A stretch of 24,219 nucleotides of DNA from a virus. The stretch is taken from the IMG/VR virus record IMGVR_UViG_3300009506_000184, positions 1-24,219 of that record. One strand, given 5' to 3'. A model generated the notes under the pieces. That model searched no databases and was not told where the DNA came from. It saw only the letters and a program-made list of their open reading frames with translations. How positions within the stretch are numbered: the first letter of the stretch is position 1; each line of letters begins with the position of its first letter. Below, piece after piece: positions 9,390-22,259 of the stretch. The translations under genes were made by a program, and so were the position numbers.

Positions 9390-9881
9390 CTATTTTAAGC
9401 TGGTTCCGACCCATCGGCCAAATATCTTTCTTATATCTGTTGCGACCTGTTCGTTTCTCGGTAAAATCCTACGTTCCGGCAGATTGCCCCGGCCCTCATC
9501 ATGGGCCACGCCGTAGTAATACCCTTTGCTGGTAGCAAAGTTTTCAATCACCGCCCGGCGGTCATTGTAATCATGTTTCCAGCGACGCATTAAAAAACCT
9601 TTGTGCCGCAATATCTGCGGGTTTGATGTCTTTGGCTTATAGTATCCCCAGCCTCGCTCGCGTGCTTTGACAGTCGATGGCGCAAGCGGTTTCCAGCCGC
9701 TGCCGCCCATTGCCAGCCGACCGTCATCCCTGAAATTGCGCTGAATCCAGCCGTCAAGAAATATAACCGCCTGGTGCATGGGGCCGCCCACGCTGCCGCG
9801 CTTTTCAAGTTTGCCGTGTATTCTGCGTATTTTATTTGTAAACTGCCGCAGATTTACTATTTTAAAAGCACTTTCAGACAT
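9390..9881 (-). CDS. Phage virion morphogenesis protein (Mu gpG-like)
   Basis: This 163-aa protein follows the gp36-like connector and resembles the Mu gpG/tail completion family. The N-terminal helical segment leads to a characteristic core: IFLDGWIQRNFRDDGR, GGSGWKPLAPSTVKARERG (the W-x-PL-x-x-x-T pattern), ILRHKGFLMRRWKHDY and YYYGVAHDEGRGNLPERRIL (the H-x-x-G ... PxR motif). The C-terminus is short and basic. In Mu-like phages this protein acts in joining head and tail or completing the tail. Its ATG shares a base with the connector stop (TAATG). The motif order makes the family assignment quite safe, though the precise step is not shown by sequence. Confidence 0.85.
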   Translation of the reverse strand: MSESAFKIVNLRQFTNKIRRIHGKLEKRGSVGGPMHQAVIFLDGWIQRNFRDDGRLAMGGSGWKPLAPSTVKARERGWGYYKPKTSNPQILRHKGFLMRRWKHDYNDRRAVIENFATSKGYYYGVAHDEGRGNLPERRILPRNEQVATDIRKIFGRWVGTSLK

Positions 9882-10339
9882 TACATCCGCTCATTCTCAA
9901 GATTATAAAGCTGTGAACTATCCACATGAGTATAGGGACTGTCATCGTCAAGCATGGTATGTGTCGGCAGATAATCTTTTGTATTGCTCCATATCGCTGC
10001 GCCGGGAGCATCCGGGGCCAGTGTGCCGCTGCCAGTTATGACCTGCGCTTCGCCCGATAGCAATTTATCAACCTGATCGGTGATAATGTCATAAATTGAC
10101 TTCGCTTTTTCAGGATCTTTTTCAAGCGTGATCATATAAAGACACATCTCAAATGACAGGTCTTTAACAGTGGGGTGACCCGCTGAAAATGGCGTTGTAT
10201 ATGCCGGTGCCATAAGCATATCAACCCGGTTTTCAGCATAATAAATCAAGTAACTATCTACATGGCTTGGCTGGTCGCTCCAAGTTTTTACCAGCGGATA
10301 TCGGATGAGTAGCTCATTGTAATCGATATATCTGCCCAT
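9881..10339 (-). CDS. Head-tail connector protein (Mu gp36-like, DUF1320 type)
   Basis: This 152-aa protein has the plan of the Mu gp36 group: an N-terminal YIDYNELLIRYPLVKTW segment, then helices covering HVDSYLIYYAENRVDMLMAP and a middle helix KDLSFEMCLYMITLEKDPEK. The family forms part of the ring that joins the portal to the tail. The C-terminal 45 residues are Pro/Asp rich and probably flexible. Its ATG overlaps the TAA of the glycosyltransferase gene (TAATG) and its stop overlaps the next ATG, so the upstream enzyme gene is coupled directly to an essential virion gene. The family call is based on gene order and pattern. Confidence 0.7.
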   Translation of the reverse strand: MGRYIDYNELLIRYPLVKTWSDQPSHVDSYLIYYAENRVDMLMAPAYTTPFSAGHPTVKDLSFEMCLYMITLEKDPEKAKSIYDIITDQVDKLLSGEAQVITGSGTLAPDAPGAAIWSNTKDYLPTHTMLDDDSPYTHVDSSQLYNLENERM

Positions 10340-13275
10340 TAATAATACTTATCCTCATAATACTTTGTATTTTCGGTGACCATGACATTTACCAAGTTGT
10401 CGATATCACCCTGGGTCAAAAAGTGTCCATGCACCGGCATTTTCTGCTGTAATGGTCTGCCCTTCGCGCTTCCGAAGTCAAAGGCGAATTCAATCGTATT
10501 GCCATTGGCAAGATAACGGGCCATCTCGCTTTGATACATGATGCCGTCTGCAATCAAACGGACGCTGGGAGTTTCGCAACTTACCATATCTCTGAAAATC
10601 TGCACGCCTTCCATTGCCCATTGCTTTACTTCGGCGGTCATCTGGCCGCCGTTGCGCTCAAGAGTATATTTGCATAAATGCGCAAGATCGCGCATCCAGA
10701 GAAACTTGCCCAGATGCCTATCAGGATATTTCTCGCGCTCAATTCGCATCAAGGGGAAATTGCGCTCAAAGCGTTTACGGCGCAATATTTCGGTTGTGTA
10801 CCCGGTGTGCATAATCGCCACATCTGGTATCACATAAATTTTGCCAGTATTCGGGATACCCTTGCCGCATTCTTTTATCTCCGGGTGCTCATGGACATGG
10901 CCGAAGAACTTAAAGCCAATCCGATTTCTAAAAAGCCGACATGGAAAATCGGTTTTCAAGATGCCTTCAGGCTCGACCGCAAAATGATGCTGCTTTATTC
11001 CGTATCCGCTGAAACCGTTTGGCCGCAGGTACTTGCGCAGGTTTTCCGTCTGCTCCATGACCTCATCGGCATCTATCCACAAAATCCAATCGCAGGTTGC
11101 CTTTTCAATGGTTTTATTCCGGGCAGAATCAAAGCCAATTTGCAGCGGGCTGTCGATATTGAAATACCTTGCGCCGTATTTATCGCATATCCTGCGGGTG
11201 TCATCGGTTGTGGTTTTATCTATTCCGATGATAAGCTCATCATAGATCGGCTTTATACTGTCCAGGGTGCGGGCAAGCGTGGTCTCACCGTCTTTTACAA
11301 TCAGGCAGGTGCTTACCGTTTCCTGCGGGGATTGCACTTGCAGCTTGCGATGCTCGTCTATTTTGCCCAGCGGTTCGGCATTGTTTTCAAAGGTTACAAA
11401 ATAATGGCCCAGGTTCGGTGAGTGCGGTAAGCCCTGAAGGTTAAAGGCAAGCTGCTTGCCGAAAATGTCTTCAAGGTCTTGCCGTTCAAGCTGGTGGATA
11501 TGTGCCCGCCATCCTTTGTGCTGCTCATAGCCTATGGCTTCCCAGGCACCATAGGGAACGGTGATAATCATATAACCGTTTTTCGATAAATGCTTTTTAA
11601 GCTGTTCGCACAGCGCAACCGGGTCTGGCACATGCTCAAGCACTTCGGTGCAGATGATTAAATCAAATTTCTGATCGGTCTCGATATTTTCAACCGTGCC
11701 GCAGATAAAGTTCGGATAGAACATATCCACTTCGGGGCATTGCTCGGCCTTCCATTTGTTTGCGATCTCAATATTTTTCTGGTTGATATCAATGCCGGTA
11801 TAGTTAAGCTGCGGAAACCGTTTTACAAGATTCATTACATAATGGCCGTGGGCGCAGCCATAATCGAGCACGTTTTTAAATGATAGCTGTTTATCAGCAA
11901 AGACTTTTATCAAGTCATCAACTATCCGGGCGGTATGCTCAAAGCGGGGATTTCCGTCTAAATCCTCCGGGCCATATTTGACCCCTCGATCTTCTTCATA
12001 CTGATAGTATTTATCGTAATGTTCTTTATATTTGCCCGAATAAATAAAGTGGTAATTATCCTTTAGTTGCTCCTGCGCTTCGTCTTTGATATGGTAGATA
12101 TCTGAATAGTGCTCAAAGTGTTTAAAAAGTCGGCGCTTGTCGCTGCATTTGGAGGCAAGCAGGCTCTTAAACAATTTATCCCATTGCATGGCTGCCTGTT
12201 TCCAGCTTTGCCGTTTCTGCAATGCCTTGTCATGCAGCTGCCGCCATTTGCTTTCATTCTCGCAAATATATTTTACCTTATCGGTAAAGATTTTCAGGTC
12301 ATCGTCTGATAGATTGGTCTTGCCGTCTATCCCGTATTGATATTGATCATTTACCTTTACCTGATAAAAGCCGCCGTTTTTGCCGGTCTCAGGCAAAGCG
12401 GCATGATCGGCAAGGCCGACAAACGGGGTGCCGACCGCATTGGCTTCAAGCAGCATTATGTTGCTGGTGTCTTCGAAGCTGGTCGGGTATATATAGGCTG
12501 TTGACCGGGAAAGCAGGTCATAAAGCTGCTTCTTTCCTAAAAAGCCGTGATTTTTAACATTGGGCAATTCTGCGCAGCGTTGCCAGCAATATTCATAAAA
12601 GCCCCGCATATGATCCGGCACGTTCTTATAGGTGCAGATATTGAACTGATAATCGGGCATCAGTTCAGCAAGGCCTGTCTTTGGCCGTATAATCTCTTCA
12701 AGGCCGCGTTCTGGCCGGGCAGCGAACACCAGGCTTTTAGGCTGGCGATCATCTAATGAGCGCACGACGATGCCGTCAAACATTGAATAATCAACGCCGT
12801 TTGTGGTGGCGGTGATCATATTCAAGTCAATGTCATAAATCTTTGCTACCTGTTGGCGATGGAATTCTGAAACGCAGAGCACATGATCGACAAACGGCAT
12901 CTGGTGATATACCTGCGGGCCATTTCGGATAAGTGCAAGGTCATGCAGCCACCAGATGTTTAGCTTTGTATTCATCGGCCTGATAAATGCTAACGGATGC
13001 CGCTGAATAATGCAGACATCATGGGGTATCTGCATAATGGTATGGAAATTGACACCCATAGGATTTTGCTGATTTTGCTGACCCATGAACTGATAATTTA
13101 CACCGTCAAATTTTCCCATTTCCTGGCTGGCGGTAAAGCAGATCACCCGATGGCCGAGTGCTGCAAGTTCCTTTGCCATGAAATAGGCCGCAGACTCAGA
13201 CCCCCCCAGGCTCTGGCCCGATGGAATCGTGTTGCCGTTAAACGGCATCCCGCCGCAGTGGATGACTATTTGCAT
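10339..13275 (-). CDS. Trifunctional glycosyltransferase (GT4) - methyltransferase - glycosyltransferase (GT2) fusion
   Basis: This 978-aa protein carries three enzyme domains. Residues 1-375 are a GT4-type GT-B glycosyltransferase: a GGSESAAYFMAKELAALGH nucleotide-sugar fold start (24-42) and a C-terminal SFEDTSNIMLLEANAVGTPF (266-285), where the usual E-x7-E is D-x7-E. Residues 415-630 are a class I SAM methyltransferase with VLDYGCAHGHYV (469-480), GIDIN (494-498) and ICTEVLEHVPDP (541-552). Residues 652-850 are a GT2-type GT-A transferase with STCLIVKDGETTLARTLDSI, the ARN motif (718-720) and the metal-binding DAD in WILWIDADE (730-738). The last 130 residues are helical. No membrane segment or signal is present, so it acts in the cytoplasm. 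An AAGGGGG ribosome-binding site lies upstream, with long spacing. It probably adds a short, methylated sugar chain; the acceptor is unknown. Confidence 0.88.
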   Translation of the reverse strand: MQIVIHCGGMPFNGNTIPSGQSLGGSESAAYFMAKELAALGHRVICFTASQEMGKFDGVNYQFMGQQNQQNPMGVNFHTIMQIPHDVCIIQRHPLAFIRPMNTKLNIWWLHDLALIRNGPQVYHQMPFVDHVLCVSEFHRQQVAKIYDIDLNMITATTNGVDYSMFDGIVVRSLDDRQPKSLVFAARPERGLEEIIRPKTGLAELMPDYQFNICTYKNVPDHMRGFYEYCWQRCAELPNVKNHGFLGKKQLYDLLSRSTAYIYPTSFEDTSNIMLLEANAVGTPFVGLADHAALPETGKNGGFYQVKVNDQYQYGIDGKTNLSDDDLKIFTDKVKYICENESKWRQLHDKALQKRQSWKQAAMQWDKLFKSLLASKCSDKRRLFKHFEHYSDIYHIKDEAQEQLKDNYHFIYSGKYKEHYDKYYQYEEDRGVKYGPEDLDGNPRFEHTARIVDDLIKVFADKQLSFKNVLDYGCAHGHYVMNLVKRFPQLNYTGIDINQKNIEIANKWKAEQCPEVDMFYPNFICGTVENIETDQKFDLIICTEVLEHVPDPVALCEQLKKHLSKNGYMIITVPYGAWEAIGYEQHKGWRAHIHQLERQDLEDIFGKQLAFNLQGLPHSPNLGHYFVTFENNAEPLGKIDEHRKLQVQSPQETVSTCLIVKDGETTLARTLDSIKPIYDELIIGIDKTTTDDTRRICDKYGARYFNIDSPLQIGFDSARNKTIEKATCDWILWIDADEVMEQTENLRKYLRPNGFSGYGIKQHHFAVEPEGILKTDFPCRLFRNRIGFKFFGHVHEHPEIKECGKGIPNTGKIYVIPDVAIMHTGYTTEILRRKRFERNFPLMRIEREKYPDRHLGKFLWMRDLAHLCKYTLERNGGQMTAEVKQWAMEGVQIFRDMVSCETPSVRLIADGIMYQSEMARYLANGNTIEFAFDFGSAKGRPLQQKMPVHGHFLTQGDIDNLVNVMVTENTKYYEDKYY

Positions 13276-13304
13276 AAGCTGTTTTTACCCCCTTTTTGTT
13301 AAAG

Positions 13305-13553
13305 TTATTTCCTGCTTTTTTTCTTTTCCGGTATTGTAGCTGCCGGAGTCTCTGCCTTTTTCGGTTCTTCTTTCTTTGTTTCAGCCGGCGGCAACTTAGC
13401 CCCCAGCCTGCGGTGTTTCTCGCGTATATTTTCAAGGCTTTCACTTTCCTTTGCACTGCCGCCCAGCTTTTCGATTTCAAGGATCATGCGCCTTTTAAAT
13501 TCCTTGCGGCCTTCGATATCCGCTACATGCGGTATGGCCCCTAGATTAAACAT
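13305..13553 (-). CDS. Small basic/charged protein of unknown function
   Basis: This 82-aa protein follows the major capsid gene after a structured spacer and has a strong ribosome-binding site (AGGAG, 7 bases before ATG at 13553). Residues 1-50 are helical (EFKRRMILEIEKLGGSAKES, NIREKHRRLGAKL). The C-terminal 30 residues are a low-complexity Lys/Glu/Pro/Ala tail (KKEEPKKAETPAATIPEKKK), probably disordered. It has no recognisable domain. Position between capsid and connector suggests a minor head or joining protein. An overlapping frame in the same region (13238-13480) lacks a ribosome-binding site and looks like a shadow. Confidence 0.65.
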   Translation of the reverse strand: MFNLGAIPHVADIEGRKEFKRRMILEIEKLGGSAKESESLENIREKHRRLGAKLPPAETKKEEPKKAETPAATIPEKKKSRK

Positions 13554-13578
13554 ATATTTTCTCCTGTTACCCCGAAAG

Positions 13579-13650
13579 GTGCGCGGCGGGCCGGGGGCCT
13601 CAAAGTACCGGGCGGGGTAATTTCCCAGATGAGTTTTACCCGCCGCGCAC
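13579..13650 (-). repeat. GC-rich inverted repeat after the major capsid gene
   Basis: The 106-base gap between the capsid stop and the next gene contains a perfect 12-bp inverted repeat: gtgcgcggcggg at 13579-13590 and cccgccgcgcac at 13639-13650. Inside the 48-base loop, TTACCCCGCC and GGCGGGTAAAA can form an alternative imperfect pair, so two mutually exclusive foldings exist. There is no U tract, so a simple intrinsic terminator is unlikely. An RNA-stabilising or partly terminating structure that keeps capsid mRNA abundant is a reasonable guess. Confidence 0.7.
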
Positions 13651-13659
13651 GCATTGGTT

Positions 13660-14628
13660 TTAGCTTGAGCTGGTCACATTCGTAATCAGGTAAGACAGAG
13701 GCTTTGAAGTGATTACCTCATCCTGATAGACGCCCAATTCAACTTCTTCAGCCTTGATTTTGGCATCAAACGGGTGACGCTCAACAGTCATGTTCGGCAA
13801 TCCGGGCCGACTCCATCTGAATGAATACATGAAACTCGGCTCTTCGATGCTCGGTGCGCTCGGTGCATAGTAAATAAGCACATGGTCGCCCCAGACCGGC
13901 ACCAGCGTTTGACTCTGGCCCTCGGCCGCCGTGTTGATATAGGCTTCGCCTACCAGCAACCTGTCAACCTCAAACAGTGCCGCCACTTGCTGGCGGGATA
14001 CAATGCGCGGACTTCCCGTGCCAGTGTCACCGTGCAGCAATGAAATAACGTCATCATGCCGCCTGAAGTTGCGCCATGCCTGCCCGCTAAACAGGATGCT
14101 GTTCGGGCGATAGCCGGTCGTATCCTGAACAACATCAATGCCGGTAAACATCATTTCAACCGGGGTGCTGTTTCCAGCGTTATAATCTGTCCATGCCGAA
14201 GCGACAGCGGTTGAACTGCCAATATTTGAAGTACTGGTCACCTGATTGGCAACCCGACTTTCCCATACCAGGCCCATTTTGCCGACCAGGAAAGTAGCGC
14301 GGCCATTGCGAAGCTCATTGACATAGGCTGCGTCCATGTTTTCCCTGTCTTCAAGGGTCAGCATGGTTTTTAAAGCGTAGTTTTCGGCATAGTACGCTCC
14401 GGAGCTTACGCTTCGAGTGATTTTGTTCGCCTCGGTGCCGGGCGCACGCAGAGCGGTCTCGACTCTGAGAATATCGGCCTGAGACCATACCGGGTAATAG
14501 TCAGATTGCTTGCCGACAGGCACAATCGGCGCAATCATATCGGCAATCAGATTGCCGGGGCGATAGTTGATAGCCACATTAGTCAAGTTTTGATCAATAT
14601 GAAGATCATGTCCAGAAGCGGTTCCCAT
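13660..14628 (-). CDS. Major capsid protein
   Basis: This 322-aa protein follows the protease-scaffold and decoration genes, the canonical place for the coat protein. It opens HIDQNLTNVAINYRPGNLIA, continues DMIAPIVPVGKQSDYYPVWS and KITRSVSSGAYYAENYALKT, a pattern I associate with a coat-protein family of phages with Mu-like heads; the fold should be HK97-like. Further conserved-looking segments are GYRPNSILFSGQAWRNFRRH (A-domain-like) and MTVERHPFDAKIKAEEVELG near the C-terminus. There is no long N-terminal delta domain, consistent with a separate scaffold. A strong ribosome-binding site (AAAGGAG) precedes the ATG. Its first four residues (MGTA) are the same as those of the decoration protein upstream. 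The identification is safe from position and composition. Confidence 0.85.
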   Translation of the reverse strand: MGTASGHDLHIDQNLTNVAINYRPGNLIADMIAPIVPVGKQSDYYPVWSQADILRVETALRAPGTEANKITRSVSSGAYYAENYALKTMLTLEDRENMDAAYVNELRNGRATFLVGKMGLVWESRVANQVTSTSNIGSSTAVASAWTDYNAGNSTPVEMMFTGIDVVQDTTGYRPNSILFSGQAWRNFRRHDDVISLLHGDTGTGSPRIVSRQQVAALFEVDRLLVGEAYINTAAEGQSQTLVPVWGDHVLIYYAPSAPSIEEPSFMYSFRWSRPGLPNMTVERHPFDAKIKAEEVELGVYQDEVITSKPLSYLITNVTSSS

Positions 14629-14644
14629 AGGTCAATTCTCCTTT

Positions 14645-15022
14645 CTACAAGCTGGTCGGCAGGTAGTCTGCCACACCGTGGAAAAAGATTGGCCCCAGGG
14701 AGCCTGAAGTAATGGCTTCCATCGCACGGCCGCTGTCGCCATAACCCGAAGCGGCTACTACGAAATAACCTGAAGTCGTTACACGCACACGCTGCCCTAA
14801 TGCCAGAGCAACCCCTGCGCGAGCCTTTGCCACGCCCAATATGATCATTGAGCCATTTTCGCCGCTTTTGGGCTTCGAAGCCAGAACGCCGGTAGCCTCA
14901 TATCCCTGATTAGCGACCTTGCCGTCATTCAATGCGATGGCTACGCCCTCATGGCCGGAAGTGTTCAAATTCTCGCCGGCTGTGAAAGCATAGGTAATCG
15001 CATAGGTATTTGCTGTACCCAT
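14645..15022 (-). CDS. Head decoration / capsid cement-like protein (DUF2190 type)
   Basis: This 125-aa protein sits between scaffold and coat genes, where phages place decoration proteins. It has a beta-barrel pattern with VAIALNDGKVANQGYEATGV, MIILGVAKARAGVALALGQR and VRVTTSGYFVVAASGYGDSG, and a repeated Gly/Ala-rich turn pattern that agrees with the DUF2190 and lambda gpD-like trimeric cement folds. It has no cysteine and no membrane segment. A strong ribosome-binding site (AGGAG) lies upstream of the ATG. As an abundant exposed surface protein it is a natural candidate acceptor for the modifying enzymes encoded nearby, but nothing in its sequence proves that. Confidence 0.75.
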   Translation of the reverse strand: MGTANTYAITYAFTAGENLNTSGHEGVAIALNDGKVANQGYEATGVLASKPKSGENGSMIILGVAKARAGVALALGQRVRVTTSGYFVVAASGYGDSGRAMEAITSGSLGPIFFHGVADYLPTSL

Positions 15023-15036
15023 AGTAAAAATTTCTC

Positions 15037-15525
15037 CTATTGAAGTTTATAGCGGTTTGCCAGTTCGGGGTCTTGCTCCAGAATGGCCTTTGCCGCCACG
15101 TCATAATTTACCTTATGCTCAATACTGTATTTTTTAGCGCGATCAGCTAACTCGTCTGATGCGCTTGCATATTCTTTAGATTTCTTTTCAACGCCTTTTT
15201 CGTCCAGATCCAGCACCTGCCGCTTTTCGATAAACTCACGCACGGCAACAAACGGCACCAGATATCCGTCTTTTGAATACTGAAAAGTCGGGATGCCTTC
15301 GACCAGCTTGTCACGCTCGGCCGGCATCAGTTTTCCCAGGGTAACAAGACGCTCGCACTCGGATTTAAACTCTTTGGTGCGGCGCTCATTATCGGCTTTC
15401 TCAGCTGCGGCGGTAAATTCTTTCAGTTTGGCATCGGCGGCTTTTGCAGCAGCTTCTGCGGCCTCACGGGCCTTTTTTTCATCCTCGATTTGCTTCTCAT
15501 ACTTTTTAATCTGTTCGTCTGACAT
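15037..15525 (-). CDS. Nested scaffold protein (internal in-frame start)
   Basis: Inside the protease-scaffold gene an ATG at 15525-15523 is preceded by a perfect AAGGAG with eight bases of spacing. Starting here yields a 162-aa protein with the full scaffold: an N-terminal Lys/Glu/Ala coiled coil (MSDEQIKKYEKQIEDEKKAR) and a globular-looking C-terminus (GYLVPFVAVREFIEKRQVLD). This is the arrangement of lambda C/Nu3 and of Mu I/Z, where a small amount of protease-scaffold and a large amount of free scaffold are made from one locus. The scaffold would guide coat assembly and be degraded by the protease. Confidence 0.8.
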   Translation of the reverse strand: MSDEQIKKYEKQIEDEKKAREAAEAAAKAADAKLKEFTAAAEKADNERRTKEFKSECERLVTLGKLMPAERDKLVEGIPTFQYSKDGYLVPFVAVREFIEKRQVLDLDEKGVEKKSKEYASASDELADRAKKYSIEHKVNYDVAAKAILEQDPELANRYKLQ

Positions 15526-16272
15526 CTTGTTATCTCCTTGCTTTTCCATTTTAATATAAATTTTTGTGTCACCCGCATGGCTTTCGGTTTCAAACTCATA
15601 AGCCAGTTCCTGCTCGAAGTCTGCCCCTGCGGGCAACTGTCGAGTCAAATAGGCCGCCAGATCTTTAAGATTATCGACTGCGGGAATATCGGCCCCTAAA
15701 AGTGCGACCGCTTTCAAGACATAGTTGAAAGTCTTCCCGGCCGCGCTTTTGAAATTCCAGTATATTTCAGAACTGACCCGCTTATAGCGGCCAGCCTTGA
15801 TTGCATCATATACGATCTCAGGCACTTCGCTTAGTGTCGCAACTATCTTGTTGCCGACTTTCTTCAATGACTTTACCCAGCCAAGCGAGGGCTGCCCCTC
15901 TTTCCAGGCATGGCCCAGCTTGACAGGAGGCTTTACGGTATCGGCCAGGGCATTGAAGTTATCGACTAAATCTTGCAAATCCTGCTCGCTGTATTTGTCG
16001 CCGTTCCATTTGCCGGTGCTGAAAATTTCGGCATCAAATTCAAAGGTTTTCGCAAACAGGTCAAGCTGCGAATTTCCTTTATGCCAATTGCCGTCTTTGT
16101 CCTTTGTCCAGCCGGCGTTTTTCACAGCACCCCAGGCTTGCTTCATGGCGCTTTCTTCGCTTGCCCCGCCTTTCATAACGCTGTTAAAAGCGTTGCGGAA
16201 TATGGACTGCGCCTTTTCCGGCAATGCGTTTCTTACGCCTTCAGGCAGGTCTGCGTTAGATTCATAAGGCAT
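15037..16272 (-). CDS. ChaB domain - prohead protease - scaffold polyprotein
   Basis: This 411-aa protein combines an N-terminal ChaB-type helical domain (1-60: DLPEGVRNALPEKAQSIFRN, then EESAMKQAWGAVKNAGW), a Mu gpI-like prohead protease (about 75-205) and a scaffold (250-411). The protease shows KLGHAWKEGQPSLGWVKSLK (118-137) and AGRYKRVSSEIYWNF (160-174), both typical of the family. His121 and a serine of RVSSE (167/168) are the likely catalytic candidates, which is inference. The scaffold is a charged coiled coil rich in Ala, Glu and Lys. I chose the ATG at 16272 because AAAGGAG lies 8 bases upstream and the protein then starts at the domain; a start 11 codons earlier (16305) has no such site. 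The 5' end overlaps the FkbM gene by 11 bases. Confidence 0.83.
   Translation of the reverse strand: MPYESNADLPEGVRNALPEKAQSIFRNAFNSVMKGGASEESAMKQAWGAVKNAGWTKDKDGNWHKGNSQLDLFAKTFEFDAEIFSTGKWNGDKYSEQDLQDLVDNFNALADTVKPPVKLGHAWKEGQPSLGWVKSLKKVGNKIVATLSEVPEIVYDAIKAGRYKRVSSEIYWNFKSAAGKTFNYVLKAVALLGADIPAVDNLKDLAAYLTRQLPAGADFEQELAYEFETESHAGDTKIYIKMEKQGDNKMSDEQIKKYEKQIEDEKKAREAAEAAAKAADAKLKEFTAAAEKADNERRTKEFKSECERLVTLGKLMPAERDKLVEGIPTFQYSKDGYLVPFVAVREFIEKRQVLDLDEKGVEKKSKEYASASDELADRAKKYSIEHKVNYDVAAKAILEQDPELANRYKLQ
15534..15539 (-). promoter_or_regulatory. Strong internal ribosome-binding site of the nested scaffold
   Basis: The sequence AAGGAG on the minus strand lies inside the protease-scaffold coding frame, eight bases before the internal ATG. 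A perfect Shine-Dalgarno within a coding frame at ideal spacing is unlikely by chance and decides the nested start. Confidence 0.8.
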
Positions 16273-16960
16273 CTTTACTGCTCCTTTGGGCCATAATCTG
16301 CCCAATGTCTGTTAGTTCCATATGGTCAAAGCCACATCTTTTTATCTGATCCATTAGTCGGCTGTTCGGGTCTTTCGGATCATAGCCGAGTTCTGAAAAC
16401 CATTTATCGTCAAAAAATTCATTGTTCGGGCCATGCGTTTCGATAAACAGGCAATTGATGCCTCGCAAAGCCGTTTTTGCATCGACAAGGGTTGAAAAGA
16501 TAGAGTATTCGCTGCCTTCAATATCCATCTTTAAAAAATCAATCGGACTTTTTATATTGAATACCAAATCCCAGAGCGCAATCGTCATCATACTGTATGC
16601 GGTCGGCGCAGCGCCTTCACGGTAGCAAATCGAGCATTGGCCCCGGTTGATACCGGCATATTTGAAATTGCAAAGATGGCAATCAATATCCACCGCGCCC
16701 AGCACCGGGATTATCTTGCCCGCGAAACCGTTTTCGATAATATTGCTGCAAAGCAGATTGAAATTATCGATTGCCGGTTCTACGGCCCAGACCTTTTCAA
16801 AGCCTCCGTCTGTCATAAGCCACAGACTGCGGGTGCCAACATGAGCGCCCAGGTCAATTGCACCCCGGCGAGGCCCGCTATAATTTGGTAGCATATCTTC
16901 GCAACGGGCCATATGCAGGTCGGTCTTATGCAGTTTTATTTTGGTCTCGCAGTAGTTCAT
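16262..16960 (-). CDS. FkbM-family SAM-dependent methyltransferase with tetracysteine insertion
   Basis: This 232-aa protein shows the FkbM methyltransferase core: GAIDLGAHVGTRSLWL (33-48, motif I), VWAVEPAIDNFNLL (57-70, acidic loop) and the family-defining DFLKMDIEGSEYSIF (141-155). Members usually O-methylate sugars or sugar-like groups in secreted glycans and natural products. Between the third and fourth strands there is a CxxC-x11-CxxC pattern (Cys 94, 97, 109, 112), which would suit a bound zinc and is not a standard part of the family. The ATG overlaps the stop of the radical SAM gene (ATGA), and its 3' end overlaps the protease gene by 11 bases, so it is coupled to head genes on one side and to the cargo on the other. 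Substrate unknown; sugar O-methylation is inferred. Confidence 0.88.
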   Translation of the reverse strand: MNYCETKIKLHKTDLHMARCEDMLPNYSGPRRGAIDLGAHVGTRSLWLMTDGGFEKVWAVEPAIDNFNLLCSNIIENGFAGKIIPVLGAVDIDCHLCNFKYAGINRGQCSICYREGAAPTAYSMMTIALWDLVFNIKSPIDFLKMDIEGSEYSIFSTLVDAKTALRGINCLFIETHGPNNEFFDDKWFSELGYDPKDPNSRLMDQIKRCGFDHMELTDIGQIMAQRSSKDAL

Positions 16961-17694
16961 GCGCTCACCGCCTGGCAGTAACTTTTTCGCATGATCTCAT
17001 ATTCGCCCGGTGTTAGATGGTGGCACTTTCTGCAAAGGGGCATTTCTTTTATTTCAAGCTCTGCAATGTCATCAAACACCGTGCCGAAAACTCCCTGCGC
17101 AAAAGCGTCAATGCAGCAATTGGTTATATTGCCGTCTGACATAACCATGACCTGCCCACGTCCAAGCCAGGGACAGACATTGGCCTCATGCTGTATTTTA
17201 TGATAATTGGGTTTGAACCAGTCCACCTGTCCGGCCCAATTATTGGGTTGTGTTATAAAATCAAGGCTGATTCTGCCGGGCATGCCGACCGCCTGAAATA
17301 TGCGTACGGTGTTAGTGGCCGCTCGCGCATGGTGCGCGGTAATATCGATTGCGGTTATCCCGGCATCTTTTAACGCTTTCGCCAGTTCAAGCGTCATGGT
17401 GTTTCCATTGGTGTTTAAATGCAAATCCTGCTTAAATGGCAATTTGTGCCGGGCATGTTTTACAAACTCGACTACTTGCGGATGCAGGGTCGGCTCCCCT
17501 ACCCCGAAAAGATTCAGCTCGCGCTGCGTTCCCTGGTCGCACAGATATTTTACCAGATCGATTGCGCGTTCAAATACTTCCCGATTCATAAAGCCGACCT
17601 TGCGGTATTTATGCTGCAATGGCGCTGGACAATATTCGCACTTGTTATCGCAAACGCTTGAAATCTCGATTGTGTTGATTGTCGTTATTTTCAT
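16957..17694 (-). CDS. Radical SAM protein with twitch/SPASM-like C-terminus (copy nearer the capsid genes)
   Basis: This 245-aa protein has the radical SAM signature CDNKCEYC (Cys 15, 19, 22), which binds the [4Fe-4S] cluster, followed by the SAM-binding segment LNLFGVGEPTLHP (61-72) and LHLNTNGNTM (91-100). The C-terminus has Cys 174, 193, 194, 221 and 224, as in a twitch/SPASM region that holds an auxiliary cluster (CPWLGRG, then TNCC, then CRKC). It resembles the second radical SAM gene nearby in length, N-terminus (MKI-T-x-x-TIE-x-SS-x-C), NWAGQ segment and Cys spacing. At this size it has a complete but minimal fold. Twitch/SPASM enzymes often modify peptides, sugars or aminoglycosides; the substrate here is unknown. 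An AAAAGGGG ribosome-binding site precedes the ATG, and its stop overlaps the FkbM start (ATGA). Confidence 0.88.
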   Translation of the reverse strand: MKITTINTIEISSVCDNKCEYCPAPLQHKYRKVGFMNREVFERAIDLVKYLCDQGTQRELNLFGVGEPTLHPQVVEFVKHARHKLPFKQDLHLNTNGNTMTLELAKALKDAGITAIDITAHHARAATNTVRIFQAVGMPGRISLDFITQPNNWAGQVDWFKPNYHKIQHEANVCPWLGRGQVMVMSDGNITNCCIDAFAQGVFGTVFDDIAELEIKEMPLCRKCHHLTPGEYEIMRKSYCQAVSA

Positions 17695-17711
17695 GTACCA
17701 GTTACCCCTTT

Positions 17712-18134
17712 TTAGATGTTTAAATCTTCCCTGAATTGCTCCATTGAAAAATTGATACCCGGACAGCTTTTGTTTGCAAAATCCCGGTGGCCGTAAACAT
17801 CGGATGCCTTCAGGCCATACCGCTTACAGATATCACGCACCAGCGCCAGGGATTTGAGCCATTGCTGTTTCGGCACCCGCAGCTTGTCCCAATTGCCGAC
17901 CACGCACACCCCGATAGAATCATCATTATGGCCGAGCGTGTGCGCGCCCATGTGGTCTTCAAACCTGCCGACAAGGATCTCATAATCAAAATTGACAAGC
18001 TCAACCCCGTAATGATAACCGATATCTTTCCAGCCATGCACCTTGATATGAAACTGCCGGATAGCCCCCCAACTGACGGTGCCGCTGTCTTCTGTCAAAC
18101 TGTGATGCATTATAATTTTAGTTATCGGGTGCAT
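17712..18134 (-). CDS. N-acetylmuramoyl-L-alanine amidase, T7 lysozyme type (endolysin)
   Basis: This enzyme cuts the bond between N-acetylmuramic acid and L-alanine in peptidoglycan, releasing progeny at lysis. Using the start at 18134 (140 aa), zinc ligands are His10 (IIMHHS), His116 (VYGHRD) and Cys124 (NKSCPG), and the catalytic Tyr40 (IGYHYG) and Lys122 fall in the same order and spacing as His17, Tyr46, His122, Lys128 and Cys130 of T7 lysozyme. The domain alone fills the gene, with no wall-binding domain. An upstream ATG at 18227 would add a 31-residue extension unrelated to the family and overlapping the Cys-rich frame; neither start has a good ribosome-binding site, so the family length decides. 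It lies in the cargo block rather than at the operon end, which is unusual. Confidence 0.9.
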   Translation of the reverse strand: MHPITKIIMHHSLTEDSGTVSWGAIRQFHIKVHGWKDIGYHYGVELVNFDYEILVGRFEDHMGAHTLGHNDDSIGVCVVGNWDKLRVPKQQWLKSLALVRDICKRYGLKASDVYGHRDFANKSCPGINFSMEQFREDLNI

Positions 18135-18261
18135 CGGTTTCTTTTTCAGTCCAAGTGCATAGGGTAATGTCACCGAACCTGCGGCGGTGGATGCAAATAC
18201 TATTTTGCCCACTTTCACACTCATCACATTCGGTGCATTCGTCCATTTCGCATTGTGTCAT
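18118..18261 (-). CDS. 47-aa Cys-rich miniprotein (zinc-ribbon-like)
   Basis: From ATG 18261 the frame codes for 47 residues starting MTQCEMDECTECDECESGQN, followed by SICIHRRRFGDITLCTWTEK. It has six cysteines (C-x4-C-x2-C-x2-C, then C and C), which suits a small zinc ribbon or another metal-bound mini-fold. A GTG 60 bases upstream (18321) could extend it, but those residues are basic and unlike the rest. It ends 17 bases inside the amidase gene if that starts at 18134. It has a poor ribosome-binding site, so it may be translated by coupling. Function unknown; it could be a metal-binding regulator or an enzyme partner. Confidence 0.5.
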   Translation of the reverse strand: MTQCEMDECTECDECESGQNSICIHRRRFGDITLCTWTEKETDAPDN

Positions 18262-18293
18262 ACCGCTTTCATACTTTGATTGACTCGGCAGTT

Positions 18294-18386
18294 TCAATCG
18301 TCGTCGTCCAGGGCCGCGCACTCGATTGCGATATAAGCGGCCACAAAAATGATAAAAGCAAAAAGCACTGCGACAAGAAATGTCAT
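18294..18386 (-). CDS. 30-aa single-helix membrane peptide (possible holin or lysis helper)
   Basis: The frame starts with ATG 18386 overlapping the stop of the radical SAM gene (ATGA) and codes for 30 residues: one hydrophobic helix (residues 3-21, FLVAVLFAFIIFVAAYIAI) followed by Cys and an acidic tail (ALDDDD). The ATGA coupling suggests real translation. Only one short, possibly coding frame separates it from the amidase gene, so a role in membrane lesion formation or regulation of lysis is plausible. Most holins are longer and have two or three helices, so this would be an unusually small one. It could alternatively be a membrane anchor or a regulator of its neighbours. Confidence 0.6.
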   Translation of the reverse strand: MTFLVAVLFAFIIFVAAYIAIECAALDDDD

Positions 18387-19087
18387 TTCAATTCATCCGG
18401 CAAAATCTGGTGACAGGTTTTGCAAAGTTCAAATGGTTTTAGTTCCCGTTCTAAAATATCGGCATCGAAAACATGGCCTATTCTGCCCAGATTACGGTAG
18501 TCATAGCAGCAGGGCACCACATCGCCCTCGCTTTGGATATACGCGCGGCCGTCAATTAAGGGGTCACACTTAACGCCTTCAGGGGTACAGGGAATACTGT
18601 TTTCAGGTTCAAGTTGCCCGGCCCAATTATGACTTTTGAGCAGAGGCCCGGCATTGATTGCGCCGGTTATACCCGCAGCGCCCATGTAACAGACCGCAAA
18701 GCGCACCGCTTCTGGTTTATGCGGTGATAAGTCAATTCGGTTTATTCCTGCATTTTTAAGGCCCGCAGCCGATTGAGGGGTAACAAGTGTCGCATTGGTG
18801 CTAAGTTGTATGTGTAGCCGATCACCCATTTGGGCGCGCAGCTTGCCTATCCGTTCAATCAGCTGCGGGTCGAGCAGGGATTCACCGTTGCCGTTTAGAT
18901 TCAATTCTTTTTGTGTGCCTCTTTCGGTCAATTCGCTAACAATCTCGACACAACGGTCAAATACGGCATCGTTCATAATCCCAGGCTTGCGAGATGGATC
19001 TTTTACCAGCATCCGGTTTATGCAATATGAACAAGACAGATTACAAAGGCTTGAAAGCTCAATGGTTGTTACGGTGTTTATTTTCAT
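18383..19087 (-). CDS. Radical SAM protein with twitch/SPASM-like C-terminus (copy nearer the terminase genes)
   Basis: This 234-aa protein begins MKINTVTTIELSSLCNLSCS and carries the cluster motif CNLSCSYC (Cys 15, 19, 22). The SAM-binding segment LNLNGNGESLLDP (62-74) lacks the proline of the usual GEP motif. The C-terminus has Cys 167, 174, 193, 194, 222 and 225, matching its paralogue at four points (174, 193/194 and the CxxC), plus an extra Cys at 167, so it probably binds one auxiliary cluster. The NWAGQ segment (154-158) is also shared. Overall it looks like a diverged duplicate, separated from its relative only by the membrane peptide, the Cys-rich frame and the amidase. Its ATG overlaps the stop of the 75-aa gene (ATGA). 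The substrate is unknown; a different substrate from that of the paralogue is likely given the divergence. Confidence 0.88.
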   Translation of the reverse strand: MKINTVTTIELSSLCNLSCSYCINRMLVKDPSRKPGIMNDAVFDRCVEIVSELTERGTQKELNLNGNGESLLDPQLIERIGKLRAQMGDRLHIQLSTNATLVTPQSAAGLKNAGINRIDLSPHKPEAVRFAVCYMGAAGITGAINAGPLLKSHNWAGQLEPENSIPCTPEGVKCDPLIDGRAYIQSEGDVVPCCYDYRNLGRIGHVFDADILERELKPFELCKTCHQILPDELK

Positions 19088-19311
19088 TTAGGCGATTTCA
19101 AAGTGGCACAAATCATTTGGATTGTTTCATCCCTTTTAAAGCCGTGATTTTCAAGCGCAGTCGCTTTGCATTCGAGCCAAAAAGCCCAACTGTCTTCAAG
19201 GTCTTCTGCTACCTGCGGATTTTCTTTGAAAAAACTCCAATACATAACCCGCGCTAACTGCTGCGCCTTCAAGTCCTTTTCCATTTGCTCTGCTTTTTCT
19301 GCATGAGTCAT
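19084..19311 (-). CDS. 75-aa helical protein next to radical SAM gene
   Basis: This 75-aa protein has a strong ribosome-binding site (AAAGGGGG, 5 bases before the ATG) and overlaps the radical SAM start by four bases, so it is probably co-translated with the enzyme. It is mostly helical: an N-terminal charged helix (HAEKAEQMEKDLKAQQLARV), a Trp/Phe-rich middle (MYWSFFKENPQVAED, DSWAFWLECKATALE) and a C-terminal helix. It has two Cys and no leader-core signature typical of ribosomal peptide precursors. It could be a partner that delivers a substrate, or an unrelated head-region protein. No known family is recognised. Confidence 0.7.
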   Translation of the reverse strand: MTHAEKAEQMEKDLKAQQLARVMYWSFFKENPQVAEDLEDSWAFWLECKATALENHGFKRDETIQMICATLKSPK

Positions 19312-19322
19312 TTTTACCCCCT

Positions 19323-19874
19323 TTAAACTTTTTCAGTTAATATTTTGCCGTAATTAAACTTTGCATGGCCGGTGTTATTCAGTCCATTAAGCAGCATCTG
19401 CTGCTCATAGCCGATATGCAAAAAGTCGCAAATGCGCCGCAGTTCGCTTTCGGTGCGCAGCAGTAAATCTTCAAAGGAAACTTCAATAACTGCGTCCGGT
19501 CTGCCGTTGCGTATGGCCCAATATATCGCCCGGCCTTTAATCCAGTTTTGCTCCGCTTTGCGCGATTCCTGTTTCTTGATCCACTTCGGATACCGGCGCA
19601 CAATCCAGAGGACAAGAAAGCTCTTGCCGATTTCAGTAATTTTTTCATCCGGCCAGTGGTTTGACCAGAACATTTCAAGTGGTATTTTATTGCCCCAGAT
19701 CTTGTCATGTTCTTTTGCAATCTGCGCCCATTTCGCAAGGTTGCCGTCAATGTCTTTGTTTTTGACCGCCCAGGCTTCAAAGCCGCAATCGATTTCATTA
19801 TGCGCATTTAAAAGCCCTCGCAAAAGTGAAGTGCCGCTGCCGCCATGTCCGAGTATGAAGAAATCATTTTTCAT
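19323..19874 (-). CDS. Sulfotransferase (PAPS-dependent)
   Basis: This 183-aa protein begins FFILGHGGSGTSLLRGLLNA, the phosphosulfate-binding loop (about residues 6-20) that contacts the 5'-phosphosulfate of PAPS in the sulfotransferase fold. A second region LVLWIVRRYPKWIKKQES (87-104) fits the 3'-phosphate binding strand and helix with Arg93/94 and Ser104. The C-terminus has the typical EVSFEDLLLRTESELRRICD followed by FLHIG, seen in bacterial Sulfotransfer_3-like enzymes. At 183 residues it is short for the family but contains all expected core parts. Sulfation of a sugar or tyrosine is possible. The ATG overlaps the end of the 68-aa gene by 11 bases. As with the other cargo enzymes it lacks a signal peptide and so works in the cytoplasm. 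Confidence 0.85.
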   Translation of the reverse strand: MKNDFFILGHGGSGTSLLRGLLNAHNEIDCGFEAWAVKNKDIDGNLAKWAQIAKEHDKIWGNKIPLEMFWSNHWPDEKITEIGKSFLVLWIVRRYPKWIKKQESRKAEQNWIKGRAIYWAIRNGRPDAVIEVSFEDLLLRTESELRRICDFLHIGYEQQMLLNGLNNTGHAKFNYGKILTEKV

Positions 19875-20070
19875 CCGTGATTATGTTTGCAAACCTGTCG
19901 ATATATTTCTTGCGCTCCTTTTCGATTTCGCTTATCTCGAAATCATCGTCTTTGCCGGTAATGACAAGGCGCAAATCCTGAATCGTATCTAAAAGCTCAT
20001 TAATCAAATCATTGATAGCCTCAAGCCTTCCGACGTCTAAAACCCGTATTTCAGCCCTTAATTTTGCCAT
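19864..20070 (-). CDS. 68-aa coiled-coil protein after the portal
   Basis: This 68-aa protein starts at ATG 20070, which shares a base with the portal stop (TAATG), so I prefer this start over one 60 bases upstream within the portal gene (20130). It is almost entirely helical (LEAINDLINELLDTIQDLRL, FEISEIEKERKKYIDRFANI), with heptad-like hydrophobic spacing suggesting a coiled coil. No family is recognised. Small helical proteins after the portal are common in Mu-like heads and may be internal or joining proteins. It bridges the head genes and the cargo block by overlapping both neighbours. Confidence 0.7.
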   Translation of the reverse strand: MAKLRAEIRVLDVGRLEAINDLINELLDTIQDLRLVITGKDDDFEISEIEKERKKYIDRFANIITDEK

Positions 20071-22259
20071 TACCCGAAGCCCTCTTGCGGCTGGATTTTG
20101 CTTGACGGCACAATCTCTTTGCCGTTCCATTCATCAACCTGAGTTATCGGAATCAGGATTGACCGGCATTGAAAGTGGTTAGGCGGCTGATAATGGCTGA
20201 AGTCTCTTAAAATCTTGCCGTTCAATGAAGCGCATATCTCAGTGGTGCGGCTGTCCATGATTGCCGAATATTCATAGGCCACCACAAAGCCCTTGAGCGC
20301 AGGATCGCCGAATAATGAAGCGCGGGCCTCATTTATGGCCTTGCTGCTTTCAGTGCGGGCGATGTTTTCAAGCCTGAAGGCCGGCAGCGGGGCCTCGCCG
20401 GTTGTGGCAAGGAATTTTGAAATAGCTTTATCAAGGTCAAGCATGGTCTCGCGCAGGGACTTGTCATACCGGATAGCGTTTTGCAGAACATAGTCAACAG
20501 ACTCGACAATCGCGTCTCCGTATTTTTGCGCAAGCGCCATCATGCGCGAATTGATAAAGCGTTCGGCCTGTGTTTTGTCCATGCCTATGCCGATTCTGCG
20601 AAATACCCGTTTCGGCAGTTCCTTTGCGGCCTGGTCATATGCTTCATTGAAAATGTCAATCAATGTGCGCTGCATGGTTTTGCGGAGGTCGGCCATGCGG
20701 GTTTTGGGAATTGATATCTGTTGCAATTCTTTCGGGTCAACATTGCCCCAGCTGCGGGCGCCGCCTATCTTCTCCACCTGCTTGAATAAATCATCTTTTA
20801 TCTGGGCGGTGATATCGGTTAGTTTCTGGCTGATATTGGCATCGGCATTATTCCAGCGGCGCTCCATCAAAGCGAAGTTGACCCGCTTTAACCAGGGCTT
20901 GTCGGCAAACTGCTGTAGGATAAATTCGGAGTCCGGCTGCTGGTTGATCCACTGCTCATTATCAGGCATTTCAATCGGCATCTCGTCAGGGTCAGGCTCG
21001 CTCTTTTCGGGCATACCCAGGGTTTTTCTGATATAGCTTTCGTCGGAATCGGATTTGGTAACCGCGCCCTTGCTGACAAGCTCGGCCCAGCCTTTCATCA
21101 ATTCAAGCTGTTCTGATTGGGATAGCGGTTGCGTGCAATAGCGCGGGAAATCCTCTGTACCGAAGTTCCAGAGCGCAAGCTGCCTGAATATCTGCTCGTT
21201 TAGGACTTCACATAACTGAGCATCGATAGCATTGAGCACCCACAAAAAACCCTGGAACTGAGTATCACCAAGCGCCCGGCTGCCATGTGGCCCCTGCTCT
21301 GATAAGCCCAGCAAATTAGGCACCAGCATTGAACGGGCAATCGCGGAATTGTATTGAATAATTGCCTTTTCATAGGCGATGGTGTTTAGAGGCTGTACGG
21401 TGTCAAGCTCCACATTGTAAGGCACCTGCATTGCGGTGTTTAAAGTGATATTGTCAAGGGCATCCTGTAAAGCGTCTCTTTGAGGCTGTGTCAGGTTACC
21501 TTCGGTCACTTTAGCCCAGACAAAGCCATGCGCATGGCGTTCAAGGTGGATATTTTGAAACTTGATAGCAATGTCTTTGCTCCACCAGGCCCGGTGCGCC
21601 GCCTTCAGATCCGACTCGCCATAATAGCGGTCGATATCAGGCTGGTAGACAAAATGCACAATCTTATCGATTGGCAGTTCAATATCTTCTGTGCCTATTC
21701 CGGTCTGCTTTATGGCAAGCAGCCTGCCGTGTTCATCAACCTGAAACCCGCCATTGTTAAACGTCTGGGCCGGCCGCAGTTTTATATCAGACAAACCCCA
21801 ATAGGTTTTGCTGTCCCATTCAAAGGGCGCATATATCTTTTCACATATCGAAAAACCGGATTTAAAAGCCGACAGGATTTCAATCAGCTTGTCAGACCAT
21901 GAGCCGGATATATTTTTGATAGCGGCCATAAAAAAATCGGCTATCTCAACATGATCTTTGTTTTCTTCTTCGGTTTCCGGGTCGATCTCGATATCAAAGT
22001 AATATTCCCGGCTGGTAATGGCGTTCTGCTTGAATCGGTAAACGGCCTTGACCTGATCGTCTTTGAGCATCCGGGTATAGATGCCGTCACCCTTATAGGC
22101 TAAAAGCTCATCCGGGTTGTAATATGTAAAGTCACTGCCCAGATATAGCCGGCTGCGCATGATGCCGATTTCTTTTAGCGAAGGCGGTTTAATATCGGCT
22201 TTTAACTGCGGCGCAGCTGCCGGCTGAGTTCGGAATCGATTAAAAAATGGGATCTGCAT
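20070..22259 (-). CDS. Portal protein fused to Mu F-like minor head protein
   Basis: This 729-aa protein joins two normally separate Mu proteins. The N-terminal 450 residues match the DUF935/Mu gp29-type portal (KSGFSICEKIYAPFEWDSKT, LPIDKIVHFVYQPDIDRYYG, AIIQYNSAIARSMLVPNLLG, GDTQFQGFLWVLNAIDAQLC). The C-terminal 200 residues match the Mu F-like head morphogenesis domain: LENIARTESSKAINEAR, YEYSAIMDSRTTEICASLNG and the closing YQPPNHFQCRSILIPI. A Pro/Glu-rich linker (KSEPDPDEMPIEMPDNEQ) separates them. The portal ring lets DNA enter and leave the head; the F-like domain sits inside the head near the portal. It directly follows the terminase stop, with no gap. Fusion fixes the stoichiometry at 1:1 and is uncommon. 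Confidence 0.9.
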   Translation of the reverse strand: MQIPFFNRFRTQPAAAPQLKADIKPPSLKEIGIMRSRLYLGSDFTYYNPDELLAYKGDGIYTRMLKDDQVKAVYRFKQNAITSREYYFDIEIDPETEEENKDHVEIADFFMAAIKNISGSWSDKLIEILSAFKSGFSICEKIYAPFEWDSKTYWGLSDIKLRPAQTFNNGGFQVDEHGRLLAIKQTGIGTEDIELPIDKIVHFVYQPDIDRYYGESDLKAAHRAWWSKDIAIKFQNIHLERHAHGFVWAKVTEGNLTQPQRDALQDALDNITLNTAMQVPYNVELDTVQPLNTIAYEKAIIQYNSAIARSMLVPNLLGLSEQGPHGSRALGDTQFQGFLWVLNAIDAQLCEVLNEQIFRQLALWNFGTEDFPRYCTQPLSQSEQLELMKGWAELVSKGAVTKSDSDESYIRKTLGMPEKSEPDPDEMPIEMPDNEQWINQQPDSEFILQQFADKPWLKRVNFALMERRWNNADANISQKLTDITAQIKDDLFKQVEKIGGARSWGNVDPKELQQISIPKTRMADLRKTMQRTLIDIFNEAYDQAAKELPKRVFRRIGIGMDKTQAERFINSRMMALAQKYGDAIVESVDYVLQNAIRYDKSLRETMLDLDKAISKFLATTGEAPLPAFRLENIARTESSKAINEARASLFGDPALKGFVVAYEYSAIMDSRTTEICASLNGKILRDFSHYQPPNHFQCRSILIPITQVDEWNGKEIVPSSKIQPQEGFG

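Follow-up and report, generated by a model that had tools for sequence, protein, structure and literature searches.

A glycosyltransferase fusion beside the capsid gene and predicted particle glycosylation in a lineage of uncultured phages

Why should genes for a sulfotransferase, methyltransferases, glycosyltransferases and radical SAM enzymes lie among those that build a phage head? The question is raised by an IMG/VR virus record of 24,219 bases, analysed here over its whole length and referred to as the window. Its head operon carries five such enzymes: a sulfotransferase, two radical SAM proteins (rSAM_A and rSAM_B), an FkbM-family methyltransferase, and a protein, here called GT3, in which a GT4, a methyltransferase and a GT2 domain are fused (Table 1). 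The original prediction held that the five act together on one product and that their late-operon placement points to the particle, or else to the envelope at late times. The reading we favour, with a probability of roughly 60%, is that products of this operon glycosylate the phage particle: GT3 would add and methylate virion sugars constitutively, and further tailoring of the sugar would be optional.

Layout of the head operon

Every gene of the module is read leftward. The order is small and large terminase, portal-MuF, an 88-aa ORF, sulfotransferase, a 75-aa ORF, rSAM_A, amidase, rSAM_B, FkbM, ChaB-protease, decoration/scaffold-like protein, major capsid protein, an 82-aa ORF, GT3, the connector-position gene, neck and tail genes. 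Pfam confirmed the five enzymes at the positions first assigned to them, as did PHROGs for the flanking head genes, and the two radical SAM proteins are paralogues, as had been proposed, with 38% identity to each other. The earlier gene list, however, overlooked a sixth enzyme, the amidase between the rSAM genes, which is probably a lysis gene outside the glycan set; no homologue of it was found in related loci at the threshold used. The gene described as encoding a decoration protein does specify a head protein, but the PHROG that it matches bears the name head scaffolding protein; relatives have one or two copies. For the small ORFs of 75-88 aa, the same relatives yielded no homologues at the threshold used.

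The gene junctions are also as described. The sulfotransferase gene overlaps the ORF at 19864-20130 by 11 nt, rSAM_B and FkbM overlap by 4 nt, and FkbM and the protease gene by 11 nt if the latter begins at its likely start codon, the ATG at 16272. GT3 and the connector-position gene share 1 nt (TAATG), and a 29-nt gap lies on the 5' side of GT3. Past the tail module are three consecutive genes (3-428, 415-1125 and 1125-2213) with signal-peptide-like hydrophobic starts, the first of which resembles a gene for a beta-helix protein. Secreted proteins are unusual at the end of a tail module.

Table 1. Features of the window, with positions counted from its first base
Feature	Position	Strand	Matches and remarks
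GT3, GT4-methyltransferase-GT2 fusion, 978 aa	10339..13275	-	PF13439 / PF13489 1.4e-22 / PF00535 1.1e-11
rSAM_A, radical SAM/twitch, BtrN-like	18383..19087	-	PF04055 2.6e-11, SPASM 7.6e-5
rSAM_B, radical SAM/twitch paralogue	16957..17694	-	PF04055 8.7e-14
FkbM-family methyltransferase, accessory	16262..16960	-	PF05050 5.3e-11; TIGR01444 above cut-off
Sulfotransferase (Sulfotransfer_3), accessory, 183 aa	19323..19874	-	PF13469 1.5e-14
N-acetylmuramoyl-L-alanine amidase, endolysin-like	17712..18227	-	PF01510 7e-18; phrog_822 1e-29
Major capsid protein, candidate acceptor	13660..14628	-	phrog_1005 1.3e-63
Decoration/scaffold-like head protein, candidate acceptor	14645..15022	-	phrog_673 1.9e-7
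Head maturation protease, N-terminal ChaB domain	15037..16305	-	phrog_976 5.1e-36; PF06150
Portal-MuF fusion	20070..22259	-	phrog_113 5e-54; C-terminal head morphogenesis families
Connector-position gene, directly after GT3	9881..10339	-	syntenic in related contigs; no match in PHROG search
Neck/tail completion protein	9390..9881	-	phrog_26 5.6e-9
75-aa ORF between sulfotransferase and rSAM_A	19084..19311	-	no Pfam or PHROG family
88-aa ORF overlapping portal and sulfotransferase genes	19864..20130	-	no Pfam or PHROG family

GT3 and the capsid gene

A capsid search gave nine related contigs, and searches with rSAM_A, rSAM_B, GT3 and a capsid alignment then brought the set to 131 distinct contigs. 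In all nine initial relatives GT3 directly follows the capsid gene, and in most of them rSAM_A and rSAM_B lie between the portal and protease genes. In the larger set, 98 distinct contigs contain a capsid gene with 600 nt or more of sequence after it, and GT3 directly follows that gene in all 98, which argues that the arrangement is not due to chance. Loci with at least 600 nt downstream that came from the capsid search alone, and thus were not selected for GT3, give the same result (27/27, a few being near-duplicates). Seen from the other side, where sequence upstream of GT3 is available (100 genes), it contains the capsid gene in 99 cases; the sole exception (L152) has no recognisable phage gene upstream. 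The fusion is present at full length in about 74 contigs, and among 35 long records Pfam detects the GT2 domain in 34, always within a frame of about 900-1,050 aa except for one extra copy.

No full-length GT3 was found in 50,697 GenBank phage records, where only parts of the GT4 domain were matched. Distant capsid homologues (27-28% identity) occur in the isolated phages RDJL Phi 2 and CRP-6; no glycosyltransferase is annotated after the capsid gene of either, and the GT3 profile finds none there. Together, these counts and the absence from isolates make GT3 a lineage-defining core gene. Bacterial genomes yielded only two GT3 contigs, too weak a basis for naming a host: a contig of 7 kb from a Desulfobacterales MAG, which carries phage genes (L151), and the exception mentioned above, an 8.9-kb contig from a SAR324 MAG.

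The surroundings of GT3 vary among the relatives, which include IMGVR_UViG_2708742752_000002 (L182; 45.8 kb). An extra protein of about 315-345 aa with a partial match to the GT3 profile is encoded between the capsid gene and GT3 in L131 (9938-10888), L168, L184 and L200. Many relatives encode long repeat proteins between GT3 and the connector gene. Their lengths differ greatly (400-1,320 aa; for instance L085:15123-17315, L093:7571-10270 and L110:14006-17968), and a few members of this gap have LamG or beta-helix domains. The repeat proteins are possible particle-surface or head fibres; the window has none between these two genes.

GT3 diverges in step with the capsid and portal genes, and as strongly as head-gene controls do. 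Pairwise identities of GT3 correlate with those of the capsid protein (Spearman rho 0.66, n=66) and of the portal protein (0.84, n=38); neither value was reached in any of 499 permutations, and the head-gene controls gave 0.56-0.72. In close pairs, with synonymous sites near saturation in most, dN/dS was 0.05-0.08 for GT3, 0.02-0.10 for the capsid gene and 0.04-0.10 for the rSAM genes tested. Both GT3 and the rSAM genes are thus under purifying selection in the sampled pairs.

These observations bear on where the enzymes act. One alternative is that they modify the host envelope late in infection, causing superinfection exclusion or stopping released particles from sticking to debris. Cell-surface glycans are common substrates of FkbM enzymes and sulfotransferases, and the signal-peptide-like starts within 3-2213 mean that the phage may export proteins. 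Against this, GT3 is tied to the capsid gene in all contigs that bear one and diverges with it. Classical serotype conversion of the Gtr type, moreover, requires a flippase and a lipid-linked-sugar transferase, with membrane-protein genes near the attachment site; a hydropathy scan of 28 window genes revealed no multi-span membrane protein, the attachment region lying outside the 24-kb fragment. All five enzymes are predicted to lack membrane segments. We consider action on the envelope improbable. Glycosylation of phage DNA bases by GT3 deserves hardly any weight: phage glycosyltransferases can act on DNA, and the phage glycosyltransferase structure 9iqz is among the fold matches of GT3, but the gene sits beside the capsid gene, in the late operon, in every contig with a capsid gene, and the window genes scanned include no recognisable partner for base modification.

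The GT3 protein itself was modelled with AlphaFold2 over its whole length (mean pLDDT 89.1). Its best fold match in the PDB is SunS, and its N-terminal part matches MshA-type GT4 folds. Profile searches of the PDB with the GT2 domain match GmaR (5.5e-24) and SunS (1.5e-18), and the DxD region and other glycosyltransferase motifs are invariant in an alignment of 27 GT3 sequences. The conserved DxD of the GT2 domain comprises D735 and D737, the methyltransferase motif includes D471 and G473, and E277 lies in the GT4 part. Against the NCBIfam model of the SunS peptide S-glycosyltransferase (TIGR04195), GT3 scores 59.5 bits, below the cut-off of 350. The closest PDB relatives of the GT2 domain are protein glycosyltransferases; however, the GT2 fold is also found in lipopolysaccharide glycosyltransferases, so that the PDB match is no proof of a protein acceptor. 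GmaR itself modifies flagellin with GlcNAc (PMC9638930).

In our estimate, it is more likely than not that the target of GT3 is a virion protein. The late-operon placement of the enzymes had been taken to aim at the particle, and for GT3 this expectation is supported by the fixed position after the capsid gene, the divergence in step with capsid and portal, the kinship of the GT2 domain and the layout shared with Corndog-type phages (see below). We envisage that soluble GT3, made along with the head proteins, would furnish a virion protein with a short, O-methylated glycan. The GmaR/SunS-like GT2 domain would most likely attach the first sugar to an abundant head protein, at a Ser or Thr; extension by the GT4 domain would follow, and the internal class-I methyltransferase would cap the glycan. 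This part of the pathway would be constitutive in the lineage, and the benefit would probably be shielding of the particle or an altered surface. Two residues may serve as pointers to the acceptor: capsid S144, which is invariant in 71 capsid proteins and is not Ser in two isolate outgroups, and S106 of the decoration protein, also invariant. Both are suggestive only. Neither the capsid protein nor the decoration protein of the window contains cysteine, which excludes S-linked sugars on both.

The radical SAM pair and the accessory genes

BtrN is the top PDB match of both radical SAM proteins by hmmsearch (rSAM_A, 1.5e-7 over residues 4-213; rSAM_B, 1.2e-10). With the AlphaFold2 model of rSAM_A (pLDDT 95.2), the two best Foldseek matches are again BtrN structures, 4m7t (4.2e-14) and 4m7s. 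An alignment of 47 rSAM sequences shows invariance of C15, C19 and C22 of the CxxxCxxC motif, as well as of C174, C193, C222 and C225 in the C-terminal part. As far as a cysteine pattern can tell, three plus four conserved residues agree with one auxiliary cluster located in a short, BtrN-like C-terminal domain. BtrN oxidises 2-deoxy-scyllo-inosamine and has the single-cluster twitch layout, as opposed to the two-cluster SPASM layout (PMC9012708). The pair is BtrN-like and plausibly oxidises a sugar or cyclitol, the substrate class being a guess since identity to BtrN is only about 20%. Within the proposed pathway, the two paralogues of the window's subgroup would oxidise or remodel such a compound before or after transfer. 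A different possibility is that the pair matures a peptide or a virion protein in RiPP-like fashion, producing a cross-link, an epimer or an oxidised residue. Matches to NCBIfam peptide and metalloenzyme maturases exist, weak and far below cut-off, and ORFs of 75-88 aa lie nearby. Yet these ORFs lack homologues in the relatives at the threshold used, the arrangement of cysteines (three N-terminal and about four C-terminal) is that of the single-cluster twitch layout of BtrN, and BtrN heads the profile matches of the two proteins as well as the fold matches of rSAM_A. We give this possibility little credence, a shade less than action on the envelope.

In a tree of the rSAM family, the A and B proteins form separate clades of 25 rows each (support 100/100 and 100/96, respectively); a third clade (13 rows, 100/99) consists mostly of genes elsewhere in the operon. 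At least one rSAM gene is present in 18 of the 39 operons covered from portal to connector, and two in 11 of them; by Pfam, the family appears in 21 of 35 long records. In relatives, rSAM genes are also found downstream of GT3 or in the interval that separates it from the capsid gene. Among the 50,697 GenBank phage records, rSAM_A has no match and rSAM_B a single partial one.

The remaining two enzymes are rarer. Pfam finds FkbM in one of the 35 long records and a sulfotransferase over cut-off in three; neither matches anything in the GenBank phage set. The window's FkbM protein is 27-31% identical to those of related contigs, which share 57-100% among themselves, and its gene follows rSAM_B, versus a place between the two rSAM genes in relatives. 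A single origin of the FkbM genes was rejected on these grounds, and we read the window's gene as a separate acquisition. Sulfotransferase homologues of 177-202 aa occur in seven related loci, with 34-46% identity to that of the window; in relatives a sulfotransferase gene also occurs ahead of the tail tube gene. A scan of 61 accessory ORFs from the gaps identified 10 class-I methyltransferases.

A fixed five-gene system must therefore be rejected, because GT3 is universal (98/98) but FkbM (1/35) and the sulfotransferase (3/35) are rare; the rSAM genes are common, and FkbM and the sulfotransferase vary in place. Co-occurrence, which had been put forward as a check, was found once more: another contig, L085, has all five enzymes in the same operon, in the order portal-Sul-rSAM_A-FkbM-rSAM_B-protease, then capsid-GT3. 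The set recurs but is not an obligate unit. No GenBank phage among the 50,697 has the same enzyme set, and the literature yielded no phage with a radical SAM enzyme, a glycosyltransferase and FkbM or a sulfotransferase. That all five enzymes serve one product is doubtful, in our view, although conceivable.

How the variable genes should be read depends on the gaps in which they lie. It could be that only GT3 glycosylates virions, and that rSAM_A, rSAM_B, FkbM and the sulfotransferase are cargo in permissive gaps, with other substrates such as host metabolites or the envelope. Their patchy presence in the long records (FkbM 1/35, sulfotransferase 3/35, rSAM 21/35), the varying slots of the rSAM and sulfotransferase genes and the lysis gene in the window's gap agree with this. 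The rSAM family as sampled here, on the other hand, keeps to the head operon, its two old, paired paralogues have persisted together, and the gap between them repeatedly acquires methyl- or sulfotransferases rather than random genes. We thus regard the cargo reading as unlikely, if less so than the alternatives discussed above, and prefer particle glycosylation with FkbM and the sulfotransferase as optional terminal decorations, which would have been gained separately. The analysis itself establishes the presence and synteny of the genes, their coupled divergence, purifying selection in the pairs sampled and the relationships between folds; we infer the acceptor, the sugar, the order of reactions, the action of the rSAM pair on the same glycan and the benefit. 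A stronger formulation is only tentative: virion glycosylation by a GT4-MT-GT2 enzyme that codiverges with the capsid might be an obligate hallmark of the lineage, the particle sugar of the window's subgroup being made via an oxygen-sensitive, BtrN-like rSAM pair.

Comparison with known systems

Among tailed phages, a few mycobacteriophages have documented virion glycosylation. Over about a hundred uncultured contigs of the lineage described here, GT3 is no less constant than the portal and capsid genes; this suggests that particle glycosylation is essential in these phages rather than optional. GT3 offers a concrete enzyme to assay, and the rSAM pair a test case for radical tailoring of a viral glycan; if our reading is true, the pair would represent radical-enzyme chemistry on such a glycan.

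Each part of the predicted pathway has a known counterpart. The two rSAM proteins resemble BtrN by profile (and rSAM_A by fold), in size, and in having CxxxCxxC plus about four C-terminal cysteines; they differ in sequence (about 20% identity) and in forming a conserved A/B pair. GmaR and SunS/ThuS are the best PDB profile matches of the C-terminal GT2 domain of GT3, SunS/ThuS by fold as well; here, too, identity is about 20%, and in GT3 the domain is fused to a methyltransferase and a GT4 domain. A064R of the chlorovirus PBCV-1 combines two rhamnosyltransferase domains with a methyltransferase and builds the O-methylated end of the capsid glycan (PMC9614988). It is like GT3 in having two glycosyltransferase domains and one methyltransferase domain in one polypeptide, but it is shorter (638 versus 978 aa), has the order GT-GT-MT instead of GT4-MT-GT2, uses other glycosyltransferase families and belongs to a eukaryotic virus. 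A064R may be viewed as a functional analogue of GT3, whose function is predicted.

The closest parallel in layout is with the Corndog group (cluster O) of mycobacteriophages, where the interval from portal to protease encodes an O-methyltransferase and three glycosyltransferases in genes whose ends overlap (PMC4351075); PMC12363180, citing Freeman et al. 2023, reports glycosylation of the Corndog capsid. The records of Firecracker and Catdawg, which represented the group in our analysis, both have glycan genes in the portal-protease slot. Corndog-type phages and the window thus have in common methyl- and glycosyltransferase genes inside the head operon, use of this slot and overlapping ORFs. 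Unlike the window, Catdawg combines three small glycosyltransferases with an O-methyltransferase of the TylF type, and the Corndog-type cassette has neither a fusion after the capsid gene nor radical SAM or sulfotransferase genes. No homology between the two was found: profiles and phmmer match no Catdawg protein to the window's enzymes, so that the shared layout is convergent. As in virion glycosylation of the Corndog/Che8 kind, the glycosyltransferase is encoded by the phage (the GT4 and GT2 domains of GT3) and its gene is placed among structural genes (98/98). Judged from the genes, the GT3 lineage is predicted to have the same kind of system as Corndog and Che8, with another enzyme family. 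That unrelated enzymes have converged on the head operon suggests that glycosylation and head assembly are linked in general.
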